DNA of 64,000 nucleotides from contig DXJV01000085.1 in the NCBI GenBank assembly GCA_019056785.1, forward strand, positions 16,476 through 80,475, read 5' to 3'. A program made the position numbers and the translations under genes. Each line of letters opens with the position of its first letter. The first letter of the stretch is position 1. This document shows, one piece after another, positions 37,961 to 46,525 of this stretch. The notes under the pieces are model-generated. The model did not search any database. It was given only the letters and a program-made list of their open reading frames with translations, and was not told the origin of the DNA. The stretch comes from Candidatus Heimdallarchaeota archaeon. Lineage in GTDB: Archaea > Asgardarchaeota > Heimdallarchaeia > JABLTI01.

Positions 37961-38362
37961 TCAAAAAAAAATGCGAAAAAGCTCCTCAATCTCGTCCAAA
38001 TATCTTTTAGCTGATTGTGTTGCTAATCCTGCTCTCCGGGCTTTTTGTCCCTTAAACTTTAAGGCCATCGTGAAATGATCGGACCGGCAGATCAATAAAC
38101 TTCCTTGCTCCGTGCGAATATTCATATGTCGAAAATTATCTTGTGAGTCAATACTTTGGAGGGCTAAAAGAGAGCTAATGCTTCTGATGGTATCAATTAA
38201 CATTGCAGCTGTTCCTTCAACATTTATGGATCCTTTATGTTCATGGACACTACAACATGGCAAGCCTTCTTCTGTAGTAAGAACAATATCAGATGCGCCT
38301 GCTTTTTCCATCAGCTCTTGGAGCAGTTTTTCTGCTGTAACATTTATTGACTCATTGTTCAT
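37961..38362 (-). CDS. Roadblock/LC7 domain protein
   Basis: LLQELMEKAGASDIVLTTEEGLPCCSV...AAMLIDTIRSISSLLALQS...NIRTEQGSLLICRSDHFTMALKF. Confidence 0.68.
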   Translation of the reverse strand: MNNESINVTAEKLLQELMEKAGASDIVLTTEEGLPCCSVHEHKGSINVEGTAAMLIDTIRSISSLLALQSIDSQDNFRHMNIRTEQGSLLICRSDHFTMALKFKGQKARRAGLATQSAKRYLDEIEELFRIFF

Positions 38363-38513
38363 TACTATACCTTCTCATCAATAACCTCAAATTTCTGCAT
38401 AGTCCACTGGTTAAAATTTTTTAAGTTTGTTTATCAATAATGAAGAAAGTCACTCTCCTATAAAGATTTAGTGTTATGAGCAGTTGTCTATTCTCAAGAA
38501 TTCATACAATGGC

Positions 38514-39269
38514 TCAGAATAATACTGGATAGGCAAGTTCGTGGAGTACCTCATATTTTTTCGGATCAAAGTCACTCTCGTCAAGCAACTCATTCAAAAA
38601 GCTAAACTCATATTCGTTAAGTCCCACAGGGAAGATTTTATGGTCAATGTCTTCTTTTGGCACTTCGAAAAAGCGTATTAATAATGGCCCAAGATAACCA
38701 GTTTCAACATAAATTTGTACAATCCAATGGAAATACTTCATAAGCTCTTTAATGGTTGTATGCTCAATTGCATCTGCAATGATATGGTACGAGCTCATCA
38801 AAGCTGCCCGGCGGGTGAGGTAATCTTTTGTGTTTCCAGCTTCGATAAGGTCTGGCAGCAGGTCAAGGTTTGCGTAAGAACTTAAAGCCATGATGACAGC
38901 ATATTGTAAATCTTCTTTGCTTTCGCGCAGAATTTTGAGAAGGATCGGAAGTGAATCTTGATGGCCAATACGCCCAAGCGTTTCTATCAGCGCTAATTTT
39001 TTCGCAAGAGAGGCTATTAATACCTCTGTGTGAATTCTTTGGATAAGTTCTTCTTGCGGTTTTCGCTCGTAGATTTTTGCTAGTGCCATCGAGCAGGCGT
39101 TTCTAACATTCCAAGAGCGGTCTTCAAGTCCCGCAAATAACACCTCGAGGGATTCTTTCCCACCGACTTCGAGAAGTTTTAACGCGCCACGAACACGGTC
39201 TATTTCTTTTTCAGACCCAAGACGCTTTTTCGCTTTGGAGCGTTGGAATGCTTTTTTAATAAATGCCAT
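38514..39269 (-). CDS. HEAT-repeat protein
   Basis: LKLLEVGGKESLEVLFAGLEDRSWNVRNACSMALAKI...LIETLGRIGHQDSLPILLKILRESKEDLQYAVIMALSSYA. Confidence 0.82.
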   Translation of the reverse strand: MAFIKKAFQRSKAKKRLGSEKEIDRVRGALKLLEVGGKESLEVLFAGLEDRSWNVRNACSMALAKIYERKPQEELIQRIHTEVLIASLAKKLALIETLGRIGHQDSLPILLKILRESKEDLQYAVIMALSSYANLDLLPDLIEAGNTKDYLTRRAALMSSYHIIADAIEHTTIKELMKYFHWIVQIYVETGYLGPLLIRFFEVPKEDIDHKIFPVGLNEYEFSFLNELLDESDFDPKKYEVLHELAYPVLF

Positions 39270-39271
39270 CT

Positions 39272-40876
39272 TTATTTGCCTCCATCCTCTTTTTGGCTGA
39301 CAATCTCCTCGATGAGAAGGCGTACCGCTGTTAATTTTGAATGGCTCATCTTCTTCAGATGAGAGTAATCAATATTTTTCTTCGAGCTTGAAACGCCATA
39401 AATTGCCTCTGATTTTCGCCCTGTATCTTCTTCGTCTCCTTTTTGTTCAGCTTTTTGTGCTGTAATGAAGTCGAAGAGCTCTTTTGATATATCAATTGCT
39501 CTGGTATAAATTGGTATGTCCCATGGAGAAATGGGATTATCCTCTAGATATCCCACAGAAAGTAATGTCCCGACAATCATTCTATCCATTTTTTTGAACA
39601 TAATCACATCAGGAAAGCCGGGTGTAGGCATTACAAAGTCCTGTCGGTAAAGCAGGCTATGATTATGGAGGATAAGTAATTGTTCAAGGCTGATAGATTC
39701 ATCGTCTATTTCGAAAACATAGACTGGTTTAGAGTTGACTTTTACATACCCATAAAATTGGAATGCCTTGCTATTTTCCAGCCATTGACCAACACTTCGG
39801 CATTGGTTTTTATTCAAGAATTTAATATAATCATCGAGTTGATCCCATTCATGTTCATAGATGTTCCAAGTTTTCCGCCAATAGCCACTTGTATCTGCAT
39901 GCCAATAGACATTTGTTGCTTGACTTGCTTCCCGAAGCTCTTTCAGGAGTCGTCGTACTTGGGCGCCGCCACCTGCTTTATTAATCAAGTCTAAATCGTT
40001 TGTTAATTGTAAGGTTTGCTTGATGATTTCTTGAGGTTGGTCTTTAATTTCTTCAAAGGCTTCTTCTAACATCCGGTAGGAAAGTTTGTTGATTGGAGGG
40101 CCATAAATTGGCTTGAGAAAGCGAGGAACTGTACTGAAAGGATATTCGCCTTTCTCGAGTATTTTTTCACCGATTTTCATATGGATGTAATTTGCAAATG
40201 CTTCTCTCAGGAAACCAGTGAGATGTTTCTTCTTTACAAGTTCAGCCCGTTTATTGAGAATGGAAATCACTTCTAGTAGGAAGTTTTGAAAGAGCGAGAC
40301 CTTTCGGGAGCTTTCAGGAGGGACGTAGAATTCTTGCACACCAAAAGAGGAGAGCAAACGAATAACCGCCACCATGTCTTGGAAATAGGGCAAGCCCCAG
40401 GTGGCATTTTTGGTTTCTTTTAAACCATATACGTTATTTACAATTAACTCTTTGATGATCATATCTATTCTATAGATTTCAGAAAGAATCTCACTGTCGT
40501 TAGAGGCACTTTTCTCTGCAAAATAGGCGTGAGCAAAAGCATGGATGAACATCATTCGTAATGTGAAATCTCTGTCTGGACTCTCTTTGAACTCAAAAGG
40601 CAAGCTAAGATAAATCATTGTTGGCTTACTTGGAAAGACAGATATGCATTCATCGGGGAGGAAGTTTCTATTGCGGGATTTCCGTAAATTGTCAATCATT
40701 TCTTGGGAGAGTACGGCAAACGGACTGCCACCTAATTCGATTACTTGGTAAAGGCTCGCATGAAGGTCGGGGTCAATGAAGAGAAGGACCTTATAGTCCT
40801 CCGGTGTTTCGCCGACAAATTCTTGGAAGTCTTTTCGTGCTTGTTTATAAATTTCAACCACTCGCGGATTGTCCAA
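39272..40876 (-). CDS. SpoVR-like protein (divergent)
   Basis: FIHAFAHAYFAEKSASND near the SpoVR IAHAxxGHNxFF position; LREAFANYIHMKIGEKILEKGEYPF resembles SpoVR NEGWAxFWHxxIMNxLxxEG; encoded beside PrkA-like and VWA genes. Confidence 0.5.
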   Translation of the reverse strand: MDNPRVVEIYKQARKDFQEFVGETPEDYKVLLFIDPDLHASLYQVIELGGSPFAVLSQEMIDNLRKSRNRNFLPDECISVFPSKPTMIYLSLPFEFKESPDRDFTLRMMFIHAFAHAYFAEKSASNDSEILSEIYRIDMIIKELIVNNVYGLKETKNATWGLPYFQDMVAVIRLLSSFGVQEFYVPPESSRKVSLFQNFLLEVISILNKRAELVKKKHLTGFLREAFANYIHMKIGEKILEKGEYPFSTVPRFLKPIYGPPINKLSYRMLEEAFEEIKDQPQEIIKQTLQLTNDLDLINKAGGGAQVRRLLKELREASQATNVYWHADTSGYWRKTWNIYEHEWDQLDDYIKFLNKNQCRSVGQWLENSKAFQFYGYVKVNSKPVYVFEIDDESISLEQLLILHNHSLLYRQDFVMPTPGFPDVIMFKKMDRMIVGTLLSVGYLEDNPISPWDIPIYTRAIDISKELFDFITAQKAEQKGDEEDTGRKSEAIYGVSSSKKNIDYSHLKKMSHSKLTAVRLLIEEIVSQKEDGGK

Positions 40877-42254
40877 GTCTCATACTCTCCGTTACAATTG
40901 TTTTTGCCAAAACATCCATCCTTGATGGATCAATAACAATAGGATAGGTTATTCCTCGCAAGGCTCTTCTTGTATCGCGATACAGGTCAGTAAGTTTTAG
41001 CCGTTCAGAGCCAATGATGAAATAAGAGACCTTCCATGTTCGGCTCTGGTCGCGTATGGCGTCCCGGAGTAAGCTATTAATTTCAAAGTAGCAATTTCGT
41101 GTTACCGGGTCAATCCCCCCTGAGCGTTCTTCTTCGAAGTAATTTATAAGACTCTGGGAGGGGGTAGGTTCATAGCCTGGGATAAGCTCATTCGGTCTGC
41201 CATCAGTAACAATAATTAAATGAACGTCTCGATTTTGGGTGTTTTTCTTGACTTTCGCGTGTTCTATTGCTGTTTTAATAGATGCACTCATTGGAGTTCG
41301 TCCTTTTGCTGTTGCTGTTAGCAGGAAACGTTCTAGCTGGTCCTCAGAAGTGATAATTTGCCTTGTTTTCGATATTGGTACAACAGCCGTTCGAAAGGCT
41401 CGCTGATTTGTCCTGCGAGTCCGTCCTTGTCGTTTGAAATAATAAAAGATCGCCAGTGAAGTTAGAAGCGCACCTTCCAGACGTGAAAAATGAGTCCCTT
41501 GAACAACATTCCTCATAGATTGCGAAGTGTCAACGATAAGATAGATTTGCGCATTTCGGTCCTTTTTCATGACAACAATATCATCAATATCGATAGACTT
41601 TGGGGGAATCGTCTGTGAGGTGAAAATAGAGTGTTCAAAGGTTTTTTTCTTGTGAATTTTTCCTCGAGGGCGTACAATTGTGTCATTGACCGGTCGTGCT
41701 GGAAGTTGTCGCGCTAACCAATTGCCAAGCTGGTTGCCGAGAAAGTCCATCACTTCTTCCCGTTTAATGCGCATTTTATGTCCAAATCTATCGGTGATTT
41801 CAATATCAGTCAATTCCTCAAGTGTGCGAAGTGACTCTGTGAGTTGTTTTTTGTATTCTGCTGTTCCTTCGAAGCCTTTCAAATGTCGCTGGATGAATTG
41901 TTCGATTTCCTCTCGTGTCTGCAATTCGCCCATGTTCACTTTTAATAAAGCATCCGGTAGTGCATTGTTGCCAATATACTCAAGTATTTCCAACTCGCGA
42001 ATCAAGTCTTCTTCCTCGAGTGGCTCCATTGGAGTGACCAGAAGCCTGTGTTGTATGTTTTTTACAGCAACGGCATTTTCAAGAGCCATACCTAAAACCA
42101 AAGCCTCACGTGAGCTCTGTCCTTTCCGGGGATCACGCCATTTCTGAAGGACACTTGCAGCATCGGCAAAGTCGAACACAAAATCAGGGTCACGCCACAC
42201 CATCAAAGGGTCTGTGAATCGCTCTCGACTGATTACGTGTATTCTGTGAGGCAT
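40854..42254 (-). CDS. VWA-domain protein with complete MIDAS
   Basis: IYLIVDTSQSMRN (DxSxS), ATAKGRTPMSASIKTAI (T), LIIVTDGRPNE (D); overlaps downstream gene by 23 bp. Confidence 0.85.
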   Translation of the reverse strand: MPHRIHVISRERFTDPLMVWRDPDFVFDFADAASVLQKWRDPRKGQSSREALVLGMALENAVAVKNIQHRLLVTPMEPLEEEDLIRELEILEYIGNNALPDALLKVNMGELQTREEIEQFIQRHLKGFEGTAEYKKQLTESLRTLEELTDIEITDRFGHKMRIKREEVMDFLGNQLGNWLARQLPARPVNDTIVRPRGKIHKKKTFEHSIFTSQTIPPKSIDIDDIVVMKKDRNAQIYLIVDTSQSMRNVVQGTHFSRLEGALLTSLAIFYYFKRQGRTRRTNQRAFRTAVVPISKTRQIITSEDQLERFLLTATAKGRTPMSASIKTAIEHAKVKKNTQNRDVHLIIVTDGRPNELIPGYEPTPSQSLINYFEEERSGGIDPVTRNCYFEINSLLRDAIRDQSRTWKVSYFIIGSERLKLTDLYRDTRRALRGITYPIVIDPSRMDVLAKTIVTESMRLGQSASG

Positions 42255-42305
42255 TTTATTTGCTCTCCAATTTTCTTAAAGTGTTCTTTAATCATTCTTT
42301 CGTTT

Positions 42306-43868
42306 TTAGATATGGTCTACAAGTAGCAATTGTTCATAGCTTGGTTTTAATTGTGAAATGACCGCTTCTTGTATTTTCTTTGGCTGCTTTTCTAAGCCTT
42401 CATAAGCAATTATGATTTTACTTAGTTCCTCATCTGTCAATGCTTTCATTTTATCAATATCTTCAGAAATTGATTGCACCGTTGTCAGTTCCTCGTCAGT
42501 TTTAATAGTTCGTCGAAGCATGGTCTTTACTTCTTGCATAGCATCATTGATGAGGTTTCTTGGAATATCGAAGAGCTCGACAATGCGTTTTGCGTCATCT
42601 AATGTGAGCATTGCAACACTGTTTTGTTTATAAAACTCATCCTTTCGGAGAACGGTCTCACCAATGAGCGAATAAAGAGTACGTAAGTCAACATGAGGAG
42701 TCTTTTCGGGGTCATGAATTTCAATTAAAGATTTAAAGAACATATCTCGAGTAACTTTCTTACGAGCATAAGCTTCAGTTTCGCCGGATTTTAGTGCATT
42801 AGGAATTGAGAGGTCAGCCATCAAACCGATGAATTGAATTGCTAGTTTGCTGACACCTTTCTTACCAAATTGTTTTGTCTTCTCGAGAAGTGATACTAGG
42901 GCAGGATTTGCTGTCATATCATTTAAGCAGAGTGTTAAATGCTCTTTAAACATGTCTTCAACGATCTTGATACGTTCGAGTTTTGTTCTTGCTGGCCACA
43001 GAACTTCAGGAATACGATTGATAATTGGTTGTGCTTCTTCACCAAAAACACTAAGTGGAGCATTTGAAGTAAAGATCATTGCACCGTCTACGAAAACGGG
43101 TCGACCTTGAATACTATATTTGATACCGCTTGGGTCCTCGAGGAAACCCATTAAGGCTTCCAAGAAATTCAATGGTAAACGCTGGATTTCGTTCACAACA
43201 ACAAACCCTTGGGAGAGAACACCAACTTTATGTGCCATCGGAGAAAATGTTGTTGAAGTTTTGCCACCGAACAATTGCTCAAGGTTTTCCACCCCTGCGA
43301 GGAGCATGTATAGCCCTTCTGGGTCATTTCGAGGGTCAATTTGAGCAACATTTACAACAGTCTTGTCAGCTTTTACAGCGTTTAAAGCTTTTATGACTTG
43401 CTCTGTCTCGAGAGCTAAGATATCATTACTTCTGTCGAGATTAATATCTTGATTTGTCACTTTCTTAATCGACTCAGCGATATTTTGCTTACAGAAAGGA
43501 CAAAGATTCTTCAAGACTTCTGCAGAAGCAGCAGGATCCTTAGCATAATTTTCTGCAATATGAATAAGATACCCGGCATCTTCATTAAAGGGGCAACCAG
43601 CTATATGGTATTTCCGCTCATTAATAGCGTTTGTGAGATGCTTAAGGATTGTTCGAGCAAAAAGAGTCTTGGCTTCTCCAGTAGGACCAATTAATAAGAC
43701 CTTTCCAGAGACAGCAATCTTGTCCATCACAATTCCTTTCGAATGGACGTTTCCGCGAACAGCAGGATCTTCATTGATTTGTTTTCGCAATTCAGGCTCA
43801 TTTAATAATCTTCGAACAGAACATCCTTTATATCCTTTCTTCGCAAGGGACGCTATTGTCATCGTCAT
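42306..43868 (-). CDS. PrkA/MoxR-like AAA+ ATPase
   Basis: GKVLLIGPTGEAKTLFARTILKHL; IAGCPFNEDAGYLIHI...LKNLCPFCKQNI (PrkA-type GCPMHEEPLHL...DLCPxCR); QGFVVVNEIQRLPLNFLEALMGFLED; MIFTSNAPLSVFGEE. Confidence 0.85.
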   Translation of the reverse strand: MTMTIASLAKKGYKGCSVRRLLNEPELRKQINEDPAVRGNVHSKGIVMDKIAVSGKVLLIGPTGEAKTLFARTILKHLTNAINERKYHIAGCPFNEDAGYLIHIAENYAKDPAASAEVLKNLCPFCKQNIAESIKKVTNQDINLDRSNDILALETEQVIKALNAVKADKTVVNVAQIDPRNDPEGLYMLLAGVENLEQLFGGKTSTTFSPMAHKVGVLSQGFVVVNEIQRLPLNFLEALMGFLEDPSGIKYSIQGRPVFVDGAMIFTSNAPLSVFGEEAQPIINRIPEVLWPARTKLERIKIVEDMFKEHLTLCLNDMTANPALVSLLEKTKQFGKKGVSKLAIQFIGLMADLSIPNALKSGETEAYARKKVTRDMFFKSLIEIHDPEKTPHVDLRTLYSLIGETVLRKDEFYKQNSVAMLTLDDAKRIVELFDIPRNLINDAMQEVKTMLRRTIKTDEELTTVQSISEDIDKMKALTDEELSKIIIAYEGLEKQPKKIQEAVISQLKPSYEQLLLVDHI

Positions 43869-43906
43869 TTTTTTTTCACACTCACTTTTTAAACTTCAAT
43901 TTTTTT

Positions 43907-44455
43907 TCAATGCTTTTTTTCACTCTTTCTGGAAGAGGACTTCTTTTTAAGTACTTTGGGTTTAATCCCAAGAGTTTCAATGTACATATCCAGCCATTCC
44001 AAACAGGCCAGTATGTCTTCTTTTTTATTTTCATGAATTTCTAAAACATTCCAGAGTCGATCTGTCAGACGAATGAGAGAAAAGGCTTCGATAATCTCTG
44101 ATTTTGTTAGAGCAATGGCTTTTTCAGCATTGTAACTCGCAATGAGGATGGGTATGTTTGCGGTTCGAGTGTCCCAAACGAATGTCTCCCAGAGGAATTC
44201 CTTAATCTTTGAAAGTTCGTCCATCTTTGTCGCGTTTACGATAAATATTGCACCATCGGTTTTTTTCAACACCGAGTCTGGTATCGTTCTATCAAAATCC
44301 GGTTCCTCAATAGAAAAGGTGTAATGCGGAATGTTCTCTTTTGGATTCTTCACTTCTTCTTTGATGATGTTGATAATGTAGTCTCGAGTGTCATTCTTTT
44401 CACCAAGTAAGAGAATATGTTTGGGTGGTTTTTGTCGTTTGAACATTGTTTTCAC
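43907..44455 (-). CDS. Arf-like small GTPase fold with degenerate nucleotide-binding motifs (pseudo-GTPase)
   Basis: KHILLLGEKNDTRDYIINII (P-loop lacks GK[S/T]); KKTDGAIFIVNATKMDELSKIKEFLWETF; ANIPILIASYNAEKAIALTKSEIIEAFSLIRLTDRLWNVLEI (NKxD lost). Confidence 0.65.
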   Translation of the reverse strand: MKTMFKRQKPPKHILLLGEKNDTRDYIINIIKEEVKNPKENIPHYTFSIEEPDFDRTIPDSVLKKTDGAIFIVNATKMDELSKIKEFLWETFVWDTRTANIPILIASYNAEKAIALTKSEIIEAFSLIRLTDRLWNVLEIHENKKEDILACLEWLDMYIETLGIKPKVLKKKSSSRKSEKKH

Positions 44456-44706
44456 CGCAAGAGGAATGTTGTATTCAAGGCATCCTGAGTTTAATGAATC
44501 CTTCTTCCATTAAAGCTTTAGAGCGTTTTTTTTGGTGGCAGTTTTTGTTATTAAATTATTTTGTTATTCTTTTTATTCTTACAATGCCACCAATTTTACT
44601 GATTGTAGGAATTCATGTTTAAAAAGCTGTTGTTAGAAAAATTAAAAAAAGGTTCAAAAAGTTATTCAATAATAACCTCCACTATTTTTGCTGAAGGTGT
44701 AATTCA

Positions 44707-45399
44707 TTGGGTGAAAAAGAACTAACGAAACAACCAGCAGAAGAACAAGAAATTCTTACGCCCGAAACAGAAGAAGAAAGAGAAGAGGAAAAGGGAGTAT
44801 CAACAAGTGAAGAAGAGCAATCTTTCCGGACAGATTTTAGCCTGCCAATCAAAATCAAGCGGATAAAAATTCTCATTGCAATTGTTATTAACCTCATTCT
44901 GGGAGGAGTCACAACAAGTATGGGCATTTATTTCTTTGTAAAACCTCAAGTAAACAATTCAACATATAATGTCATCTTTGCGATTTTTATGGTACTTTTT
45001 GGTGGCATTATCTTTCTCCAATTTCCCTTTGTTATGGCCCGTACTATCAACTCGCAACTGATCCTTTCTGGTGAAGAAATCAAATTGCGGAATGCCTTTA
45101 GCTGGAAAAAGGTCCTATGGAGAGAGGTAGAAGAGATTCTTGCCCGTGAAAAACTTTCAAAAGATCTGGCTGAAAGCGAGTTACTTGCCGTGGACTTGAT
45201 ACGCTTCCGTACAGTAACAACAAGCATTCATTTCCTCGTAGAAAATTACCCTGCTGCAGATGCAGATGAAATGCTTCTTGCAATCGCCAGAACCTTCGAG
45301 CGTGTTTTAGAAGGTACGGATTTTGAAGTAGAAGAGCGTACAGAACGACCTTCTTTACAAACACGATTGCGCTATTTTGTTAAGGTAGCTAAAAAGTAA
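44707..45399 (+). CDS. Hypothetical 2-TM protein with PH-like C-terminal domain
   Basis: Acidic N-terminus, two TM helices, then INSQLILSGEEIKLRNAFSWKKVLWREVEEI; TTG start. Confidence 0.6.
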   Translation: MGEKELTKQPAEEQEILTPETEEEREEEKGVSTSEEEQSFRTDFSLPIKIKRIKILIAIVINLILGGVTTSMGIYFFVKPQVNNSTYNVIFAIFMVLFGGIIFLQFPFVMARTINSQLILSGEEIKLRNAFSWKKVLWREVEEILAREKLSKDLAESELLAVDLIRFRTVTTSIHFLVENYPAADADEMLLAIARTFERVLEGTDFEVEERTERPSLQTRLRYFVKVAKK

Positions 45400-45463
45400 A
45401 AAAAGAGCGAAGCAAGTCTCACTCGAGTTGCTTCTGCTTTTCAACCCCTCTTTCTTTTCCGAT

Positions 45464-46525
45464 TTATTTCTTAGTTTCAGCTTTCATTCGTGATTGTGCT
45501 ATGAGTTCAAAACCCATGGCGTTGCACATTACGGGATTATCTGGAATAACAACTTCATCCGGTGACTTAACAATATTGGATTCCCACATCTTTTGTTTCA
45601 GCACTTCACCGAAAACATGAGCACCACCACCGGTAAGTATCACGCGTTCAATCCAAGCATCAGGTGGTAGGGTTCCCAATAATCTCGAGGTTTCATCGAT
45701 GATTATTTCTGAAATGTTTTCGATGTAATAATTCTTCACTTCAGAGACATCGAATTGTTGGCCACTTACCATGACCGCTGAAAGATTCTTCTCGATGGTC
45801 TTCATTAAATCAAAGGGCCGGATGATCTTTCCTGTTTGTTCTTGCAAAGTTCGAGCCATCCGTGTTGTGAGGGTGTCAACAGCTTCTTCTAAGCTCCCAC
45901 TTGCGGTTCGCATCAATCTTCCTTGATATACTGTAAGAATGTCTGTGGAGCCATGACCAATGTCTACAATAATCGCATCAACAGCACGATTTTCACCAGA
46001 TGTTTTCAAAATTTGATAATAAGAGCCATAGGGTTCTGGTAAGACAAGGCATTTCTCAACCACAACATTATAATTGAGCGTTTCTCCAGTGGCATCGTTG
46101 CGTACTTTAATGTTCATCTCTTCGGAGAGTCCTTTGGAGAGCGTGGACATTTCTTCTTGTGAAGTTGCCACAGGCACACCTGTCGCAATAAGAATATGTT
46201 CGCCATCATTTTTAATGAAAAGAGAAAGCGCTGCTTTAATGGCTATCACAGCATCTTTAATGCTTTTCATTTTTCCTTCCGAAGCTAAGGGACGTTTAAT
46301 TTCACTTTGTAAGCGTGCTAATTCACCCACGAAGAAGTTTTGACCTCCTTCCTCCAGTACCAGGTTGTTTTCCAATGACTTGTCAAGAGTCATGCCAGTC
46401 CAACCAGGATTCGGATCACCAATGATTGAGGGAATTCGTATCAATTTCTTTCCGGTGTCCGAAGACATTTTAATAGTACTAGTTCCCAAGTCAATTCCGA
46501 CAGTTCGTAATACTTTTTTTGACAC
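45464..46525 (-). CDS. Actin-like ATPase (Ta0583/ParM-like archaeal family)
   Basis: VGIDLGTSTIKMSSD (phosphate 1); AIIVDIGHGSTDILTVYQGRL (phosphate 2); ERVILTGGGAHVFGEVL (adenosine). Confidence 0.85.
   Translation of the reverse strand: MSKKVLRTVGIDLGTSTIKMSSDTGKKLIRIPSIIGDPNPGWTGMTLDKSLENNLVLEEGGQNFFVGELARLQSEIKRPLASEGKMKSIKDAVIAIKAALSLFIKNDGEHILIATGVPVATSQEEMSTLSKGLSEEMNIKVRNDATGETLNYNVVVEKCLVLPEPYGSYYQILKTSGENRAVDAIIVDIGHGSTDILTVYQGRLMRTASGSLEEAVDTLTTRMARTLQEQTGKIIRPFDLMKTIEKNLSAVMVSGQQFDVSEVKNYYIENISEIIIDETSRLLGTLPPDAWIERVILTGGGAHVFGEVLKQKMWESNIVKSPDEVVIPDNPVMCNAMGFELIAQSRMKAETKK

Follow-up and report, generated by a model that had tools for sequence, protein, structure and literature searches.

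Gene content of the locus

The window, a stretch of 64,000 nucleotides from a contig of a Candidatus Heimdallarchaeota archaeon, contains a group of five ORFs on the minus strand. The leading ORF (43907–44455, GTG start) encodes a protein of 182 amino acids with a match to the Arf family (PF00025, 2.7e-7) and is predicted to specify a pseudo-GTPase. It is followed by the ORFs for a putative PrkA-related AAA+ ATPase of 520 amino acids (42306–43868), with a Walker A sequence of GPTGEAKT, a Walker-B-like sequence of VVNE and an insert of the form GCP..LCPxC, a VWA-domain protein of 466 amino acids (40854–42254), a putative SpoVR-related protein of 534 amino acids with a TTG start (39272–40876) and a HEAT-repeat protein of 251 amino acids (38514–39269; PF13646, HEAT_2, 2.8e-17). 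From the Arf-like to the HEAT ORF these are separated by 38 bp, 51 bp, a 23-bp overlap and 2 bp. An ORF for a Roadblock/LC7 protein (37961–38362, minus strand; PF03259, Robl_LC7, 7.3e-6) lies 151 bp downstream of the HEAT ORF. Upstream of the operon is a divergent ORF for a membrane protein of 230 amino acids (44707–45399, plus strand) and, beyond it, an actin-like (ALP/MreB-like) gene (45464–46525, minus strand; PF17989, 1.4e-15 and PF21522, 5.6e-15, ALP_N/MreB-like_C). The original prediction had described this arrangement of five ORFs, gaps, overlap and flanking genes, and all of it was recovered in the ORF list of the window.

Distribution and conservation of gene order

Profile searches of 232 genomes of the Asgard phylum detected the 534-aa protein in 42 and the AAA+ protein in 44, with G006 and G021 having only a fragment or a weak match to the latter. 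The operon was found in five families (f1, f2, f4, f5 and f6) of a single class, Heimdallarchaeia, and no genome had more than one intact copy. No match to the AAA+ or 534-aa protein was detected outside this class among the 232 genomes, nor in the 12 listed genomes of family f3 or in either listed genome of family f7. The closest public relatives of the 534-aa protein were from MAGs of Candidatus Heimdallarchaeota or Asgard group archaeon. Searches for plasmid relatives of the AAA+ protein, and for phage or viral-contig relatives, found none.

The genes for the AAA+, VWA, 534-aa and HEAT proteins were contiguous and in the same order in all 20 loci fetched from the five families, with the HEAT gene directly 3′ of the SpoVR-like gene in every case. 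The coding overlap between the VWA and 534-aa genes was likewise retained across the 20 loci, and the junction of the 534-aa and HEAT genes varied from −8 to +12 bp. As the order, the overlap and this junction are all retained over five families, the gene layout is not due to chance, and the expectation that it would be kept in related genomes was borne out. The member that varies is the Arf-like gene. It is found ahead of the AAA+ gene in f1, f2 and most loci of f4, but in one f4 genome (L077) it sits apart, upstream and on the opposite strand, and in the f6 locus L082 it is approximately 5 kb downstream of the HEAT gene, again on the opposite strand; it was not found within the fetched stretches of L076 (f5) and L078 (f4). 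The conserved core is thus one of four to five genes, with the HEAT gene a core member.

The AAA+ ATPase

Reference sets of PrkA, DUF444 and SpoVR were drawn from E. coli, plasmids, phages and one Asgard genome, and a MoxR set was taken from related genomes. The AAA+ profile aligned to that of PrkA with an hhalign score of 69.4 (E 5.9e-8) over 227 columns, the maximum score with shuffled PrkA profiles being 29.6, whereas its alignment to MoxR (46.4, E 2.5e-5) covered 42 columns, all within the Walker A region. A cysteine insert following Walker A (GCP...LCPxC) is common to the AAA+ protein (YHIAGCPFNEDA...NLCPFC in the window) and to PrkA of the Thermomicrobium (YAIKGCPMHEEP...ELCPWC) and Thermus-phage type (IYRIVGCPINEDP...HLCPVC in phage MN1). 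A PHROG scan, which was library-wide and so not selected in favour of PrkA, gave phrog_22605 as the most frequent family among the AAA+ orthologues (13 of 21, best 2.1e-5), and known PrkA proteins match this family at 1e-151 to 1e-165, identifying it as that of PrkA. The Pfam families listed for the 21 orthologues included neither AAA_PrkA (PF08298) nor AAA_3 (PF07726), that of MoxR, and PF08298 had no match in the protein's own genome; a match to AAA_5 (5e-4) was below the Pfam cut-off. MoxR itself is present in every genome of the set. The shared cysteine insert and the library-wide scan argue that the AAA+ protein is, as had been proposed, a divergent relative of PrkA and not a generic MoxR.

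In common with PrkA (YeaG; phrog_22605; solved structure 9xip), the protein has the Walker A region, the cysteine insert and the AAA+ core, and its gene sits before VWA and SpoVR-type genes. It differs from PrkA in scoring below the Pfam cut-off, in being approximately 125 residues shorter, in having VVNE at Walker B (N226 and E227 are invariant) and in its C-terminal half, which does not align with that of PrkA and in which the kinase-like domain was not found. The partnership of an AAA+ with a VWA protein, and likely the mode of remodelling, also recalls the MoxR pairs RavA-ViaA and NorQ-NorD, but similarity in sequence to these is confined to the Walker A region. It should also be noted that in the AAA+ protein of L077 (5867–7408) the three cysteines of the insert have all been lost together, as in proteobacterial PrkA, which suggests a dispensable metal knuckle.

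The VWA-domain protein

The MIDAS motif of the VWA protein (DxSxS...T...D) is complete, with D242, S244, S246, T320 and D351 invariant across the orthologues. Matches to VWA_2 (8e-5) and VWA_CoxE in Pfam were sub-threshold, and that to the cobaltochelatase VWA model of NCBIfam (TIGR02442, 4.2e-8) was far below its cut-off. The original prediction had compared this protein with YeaH/YhbH (DUF444), with which it shares a VWA domain with MIDAS and a gene position between AAA+ and SpoVR genes. A DUF444 identity was not supported: no Pfam match to DUF444 (PF04285) was obtained, the profile score was 27.0 with all rows (null maximum 25.7) and 21.3 with a subset (null maximum 23.6), and the similarity was no closer than that to generic VWA domains.

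The SpoVR-like protein

None of 21 orthologues of the 534-aa protein had a significant Pfam match, PF04293 (SpoVR) included. With all rows, comparison of its profile with that of SpoVR gave an hhalign score of 38.3–38.6 with an E value of about 7e-4 (7.7e-4), above the maximum of 27.7 from 120 shuffles and the 26.3 of a presumably unrelated profile pair, which was taken as the noise level. When restricted to rows retaining an H/H/E triad (H112-x3-H116 and E225), which leaves out seven rows, the score rose to 54.6 (null maximum 31.9), the aligned region lying around and after the EGxAxxxH motif; the corresponding E value of 3.8e-6 is optimistic because the subset was picked after the triad had been seen. 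When the N-terminal part was aligned by itself, the top alignment placed HAFAH on AHACYGH with a score within noise, and profile comparison found no similarity to the C-terminal part of SpoVR.

The protein thus resembles SpoVR (YcgB, PF04293) in following a VWA gene, in its collinear HxxxH and EGxAxxxH motifs and in significant profile-profile similarity. It is unlike SpoVR in having no Pfam match, in the loss of the triad in two families and in a C-terminal part that cannot be aligned. Taken together, the profile score and the collinear motifs place it as a remote SpoVR relative, in line with the original prediction. Of the 21 rows, 14, that of the window included, have H112, H116 and E225 together, and the second histidine and the glutamate are both missing from the other seven, the loss occurring in f4 and f5. 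This pattern would fit a metal site that disappeared as a whole in one or two lineages. The AlphaFold2 model of the protein, for which three closely related sequences were used as input, had a pLDDT of 34.6, too low for use.

The Arf-like protein

The Arf family PF00025 was matched by 14 of 18 orthologues of the leading protein, with most matches starting after the switch region, and among the PDB matches listed for the Arf-like profile all were Arf or Arl chains (best 3.1e-10). The second half of the protein matches Arf specifically. Unlike in Arf/Arl GTPases, the P-loop GxxxxGK[ST] and the NKxD motif are absent from all rows of the orthologue alignment: the position of the former is occupied by GEKNDTRDY in the window and, in other orthologues, by GNTSPLLDS or GCSNPATRN, and SYNA and similar sequences replace the latter. 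As both motifs are replaced, the protein is by sequence an Arf-family pseudo-GTPase, as the original prediction had it. AlphaFold2, again with three closely related sequences as input, gave a model with a pLDDT of 38.7, likewise too low for use. To our knowledge, no Arf protein has been known beside an AAA+/VWA/SpoVR unit.

Neighbouring genes

The roadblock, actin-like and membrane-protein genes adjoin the operon only in loci of family f1 at the level of the genus, where synteny extends just as much to genes for dUTPase, SSB, a methyltransferase-like protein and a helicase. Near the operon in f2, f4, f5 and f6 loci, neither roadblock nor actin homologues were found. As the adjacency is limited to the genus and extends there to unrelated genes, the link that had been drawn between the operon and the roadblock and actin-like genes is unsupported, and these were discarded as operon members. 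The associated idea of a eukaryote-like signalling or membrane layer is still a conjecture, and the loss of the GTP-binding motifs counts against a GTP switch. Of the original prediction, the operon, the PrkA and SpoVR relationships, the pseudo-Arf and the conserved order are supported, and the DUF444 identity, the roadblock and actin-like genes and the signalling layer are not.

The actin-like protein (45464–46525) is 88–89% identical across the genus and is the most conserved protein of the neighbourhood. A NUDIX hydrolase gene lies divergently upstream of the operon in f2. In f4 and f5 the operon is adjoined by a gene for a membrane prolyl isomerase of the FKBP type, which has a zinc-ribbon-like CxxC segment at its C terminus (L079:4223–4852, L080:4794–5474, L077:4356–4991 and L076:12447–13193).

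Proposed role of the operon

The conserved bacterial trio PrkA/YeaH/SpoVR is widespread, its mechanism being unsolved, and RavA/ViaA is one AAA+/VWA pair. In known pairs of this kind, such as NorQ/NorD, the VWA protein and the ring of AAA+ subunits cooperate to remodel a target or insert a metal (PMC13036017 and PMC9976466). Bacterial yeaG and yeaH act jointly in nitrogen starvation (PMC4664914). The activity of bacterial PrkA as a kinase or protease is disputed; PrkA of B. anthracis is needed for sporulation and stress survival, with negligible kinase or protease activity in vitro (PMC13001217).

The operon probably represents a highly diverged PrkA/VWA/SpoVR machine specific to Heimdallarchaeia, to which a HEAT protein and, in most lineages, an Arf-family pseudo-GTPase have been added. 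In such a machine the AAA+ protein would form an ATP-driven ring on which the VWA protein docks through its MIDAS, presenting the ring to the SpoVR-like protein or to a client bound there. The ring would then remodel or activate the SpoVR-like protein, as a third subunit or client carrier, or its client, as in NorQ/NorD and RavA/ViaA. The HEAT protein could serve as a scaffold, and the pseudo-Arf could act as a docking subunit that never switches. The physiological output would most likely be stress or starvation adaptation, as the bacterial proteins YeaG/YeaH and PrkA suggest by analogy.

A generic MoxR-type AAA+/VWA chaperone pair for cofactor insertion or complex assembly, with an unrelated third protein as its dedicated client, would account for several features, since AAA+/VWA pairs are common, the best-scoring models for the VWA domain are those of cobaltochelatase and CoxE-type or generic VWA proteins, MoxR aligns with the Walker A region (2.5e-5) and the AAA+ protein is shorter than PrkA and without its C-terminus. 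It is nevertheless rather unlikely, given that 42 columns are shared with MoxR against 227, cysteine insert included, with PrkA, that the PHROG library scan favours the PrkA family, that AAA_3 is absent from the families listed for the 21 orthologues despite the presence of MoxR in every genome, and that the third gene resembles SpoVR. Small GTPases are known to partner with roadblock proteins, as in MglA/MglB, and the pseudo-Arf, roadblock, HEAT and actin-like filament genes could be read as an integrated Asgard module, a membrane or cytoskeleton regulator acting with the AAA+ machine, since all of these genes fit into 8.6 kb of the window and are arranged in a similar way at other loci of the genus. 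This reading is improbable: the roadblock and actin homologues are not near the operon in the other four families, a NUDIX or membrane FKBP gene takes their place beside the operon in other lineages, the synteny within the genus runs on into the dUTPase, SSB, methyltransferase-like and helicase genes, and the Arf-like protein, judging by its motifs, cannot switch.

A role in defence or conflict, as a system of the vWA-MoxR type, is highly improbable. AAA+/VWA combinations are known in conflict systems (PMC7159879) and the HEAT protein had one weak PADLOC match (1.6e-6), but the SpoVR-like and VWA proteins had no PADLOC match and the other proteins marginal ones only, on which grounds a filing as a defence system was rejected. 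The stable spread over families in fixed order also speaks against it, as do the limit of one intact copy in any genome and the lack of viral-contig relatives.

Within the favoured reading of a diverged PrkA/VWA/SpoVR machine, it is possible, though doubtful, that all five proteins form one archaeal AAA+ complex, a remodelling machine of the bacterial PrkA/SpoVR type in which an Arf-family protein has given up GTP switching and become a fixed structural part. If true, Arf would have a function unconnected with membrane traffic in relatives of the host of eukaryogenesis, and Asgard archaea would have put the Arf fold to a new use by building a pseudo-Arf into such a unit. In the remote archaeal version the AAA+ core, the MIDAS of the VWA protein and the triad of SpoVR are retained and the kinase-like domain is dropped, which hints at the minimal essential parts, and the coordinated loss of the triad suggests a metal site in the SpoVR family. 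The combination was undescribed in the open-access literature searched (Asgard, PrkA, SpoVR, MoxR and Arf), a search of limited coverage that is not proof of novelty.

Related genes in bacteria, phages and other Asgard genomes

Neighbourhoods of AAA+, VWA and SpoVR genes are likewise present in bacteria and phages. In the Thermus phages Lalka27a and MN1, VWA, SpoVR and PrkA genes lie side by side (L123:4494–8712 and L125:4480–8741), and two jumbo phage records (L121 and L122) also contain relatives of all three families. One Asgard MAG (G034) has bacterial-type PrkA and DUF444 genes, which may be acquired or derive from contaminant contigs. True SpoVR genes were detected in this MAG and in a second one (G101), and these carry apparent intein-like inserts with HNC-type junctions (L084:823–3111 and, in L085, the SpoVR frame at its 5′ end).
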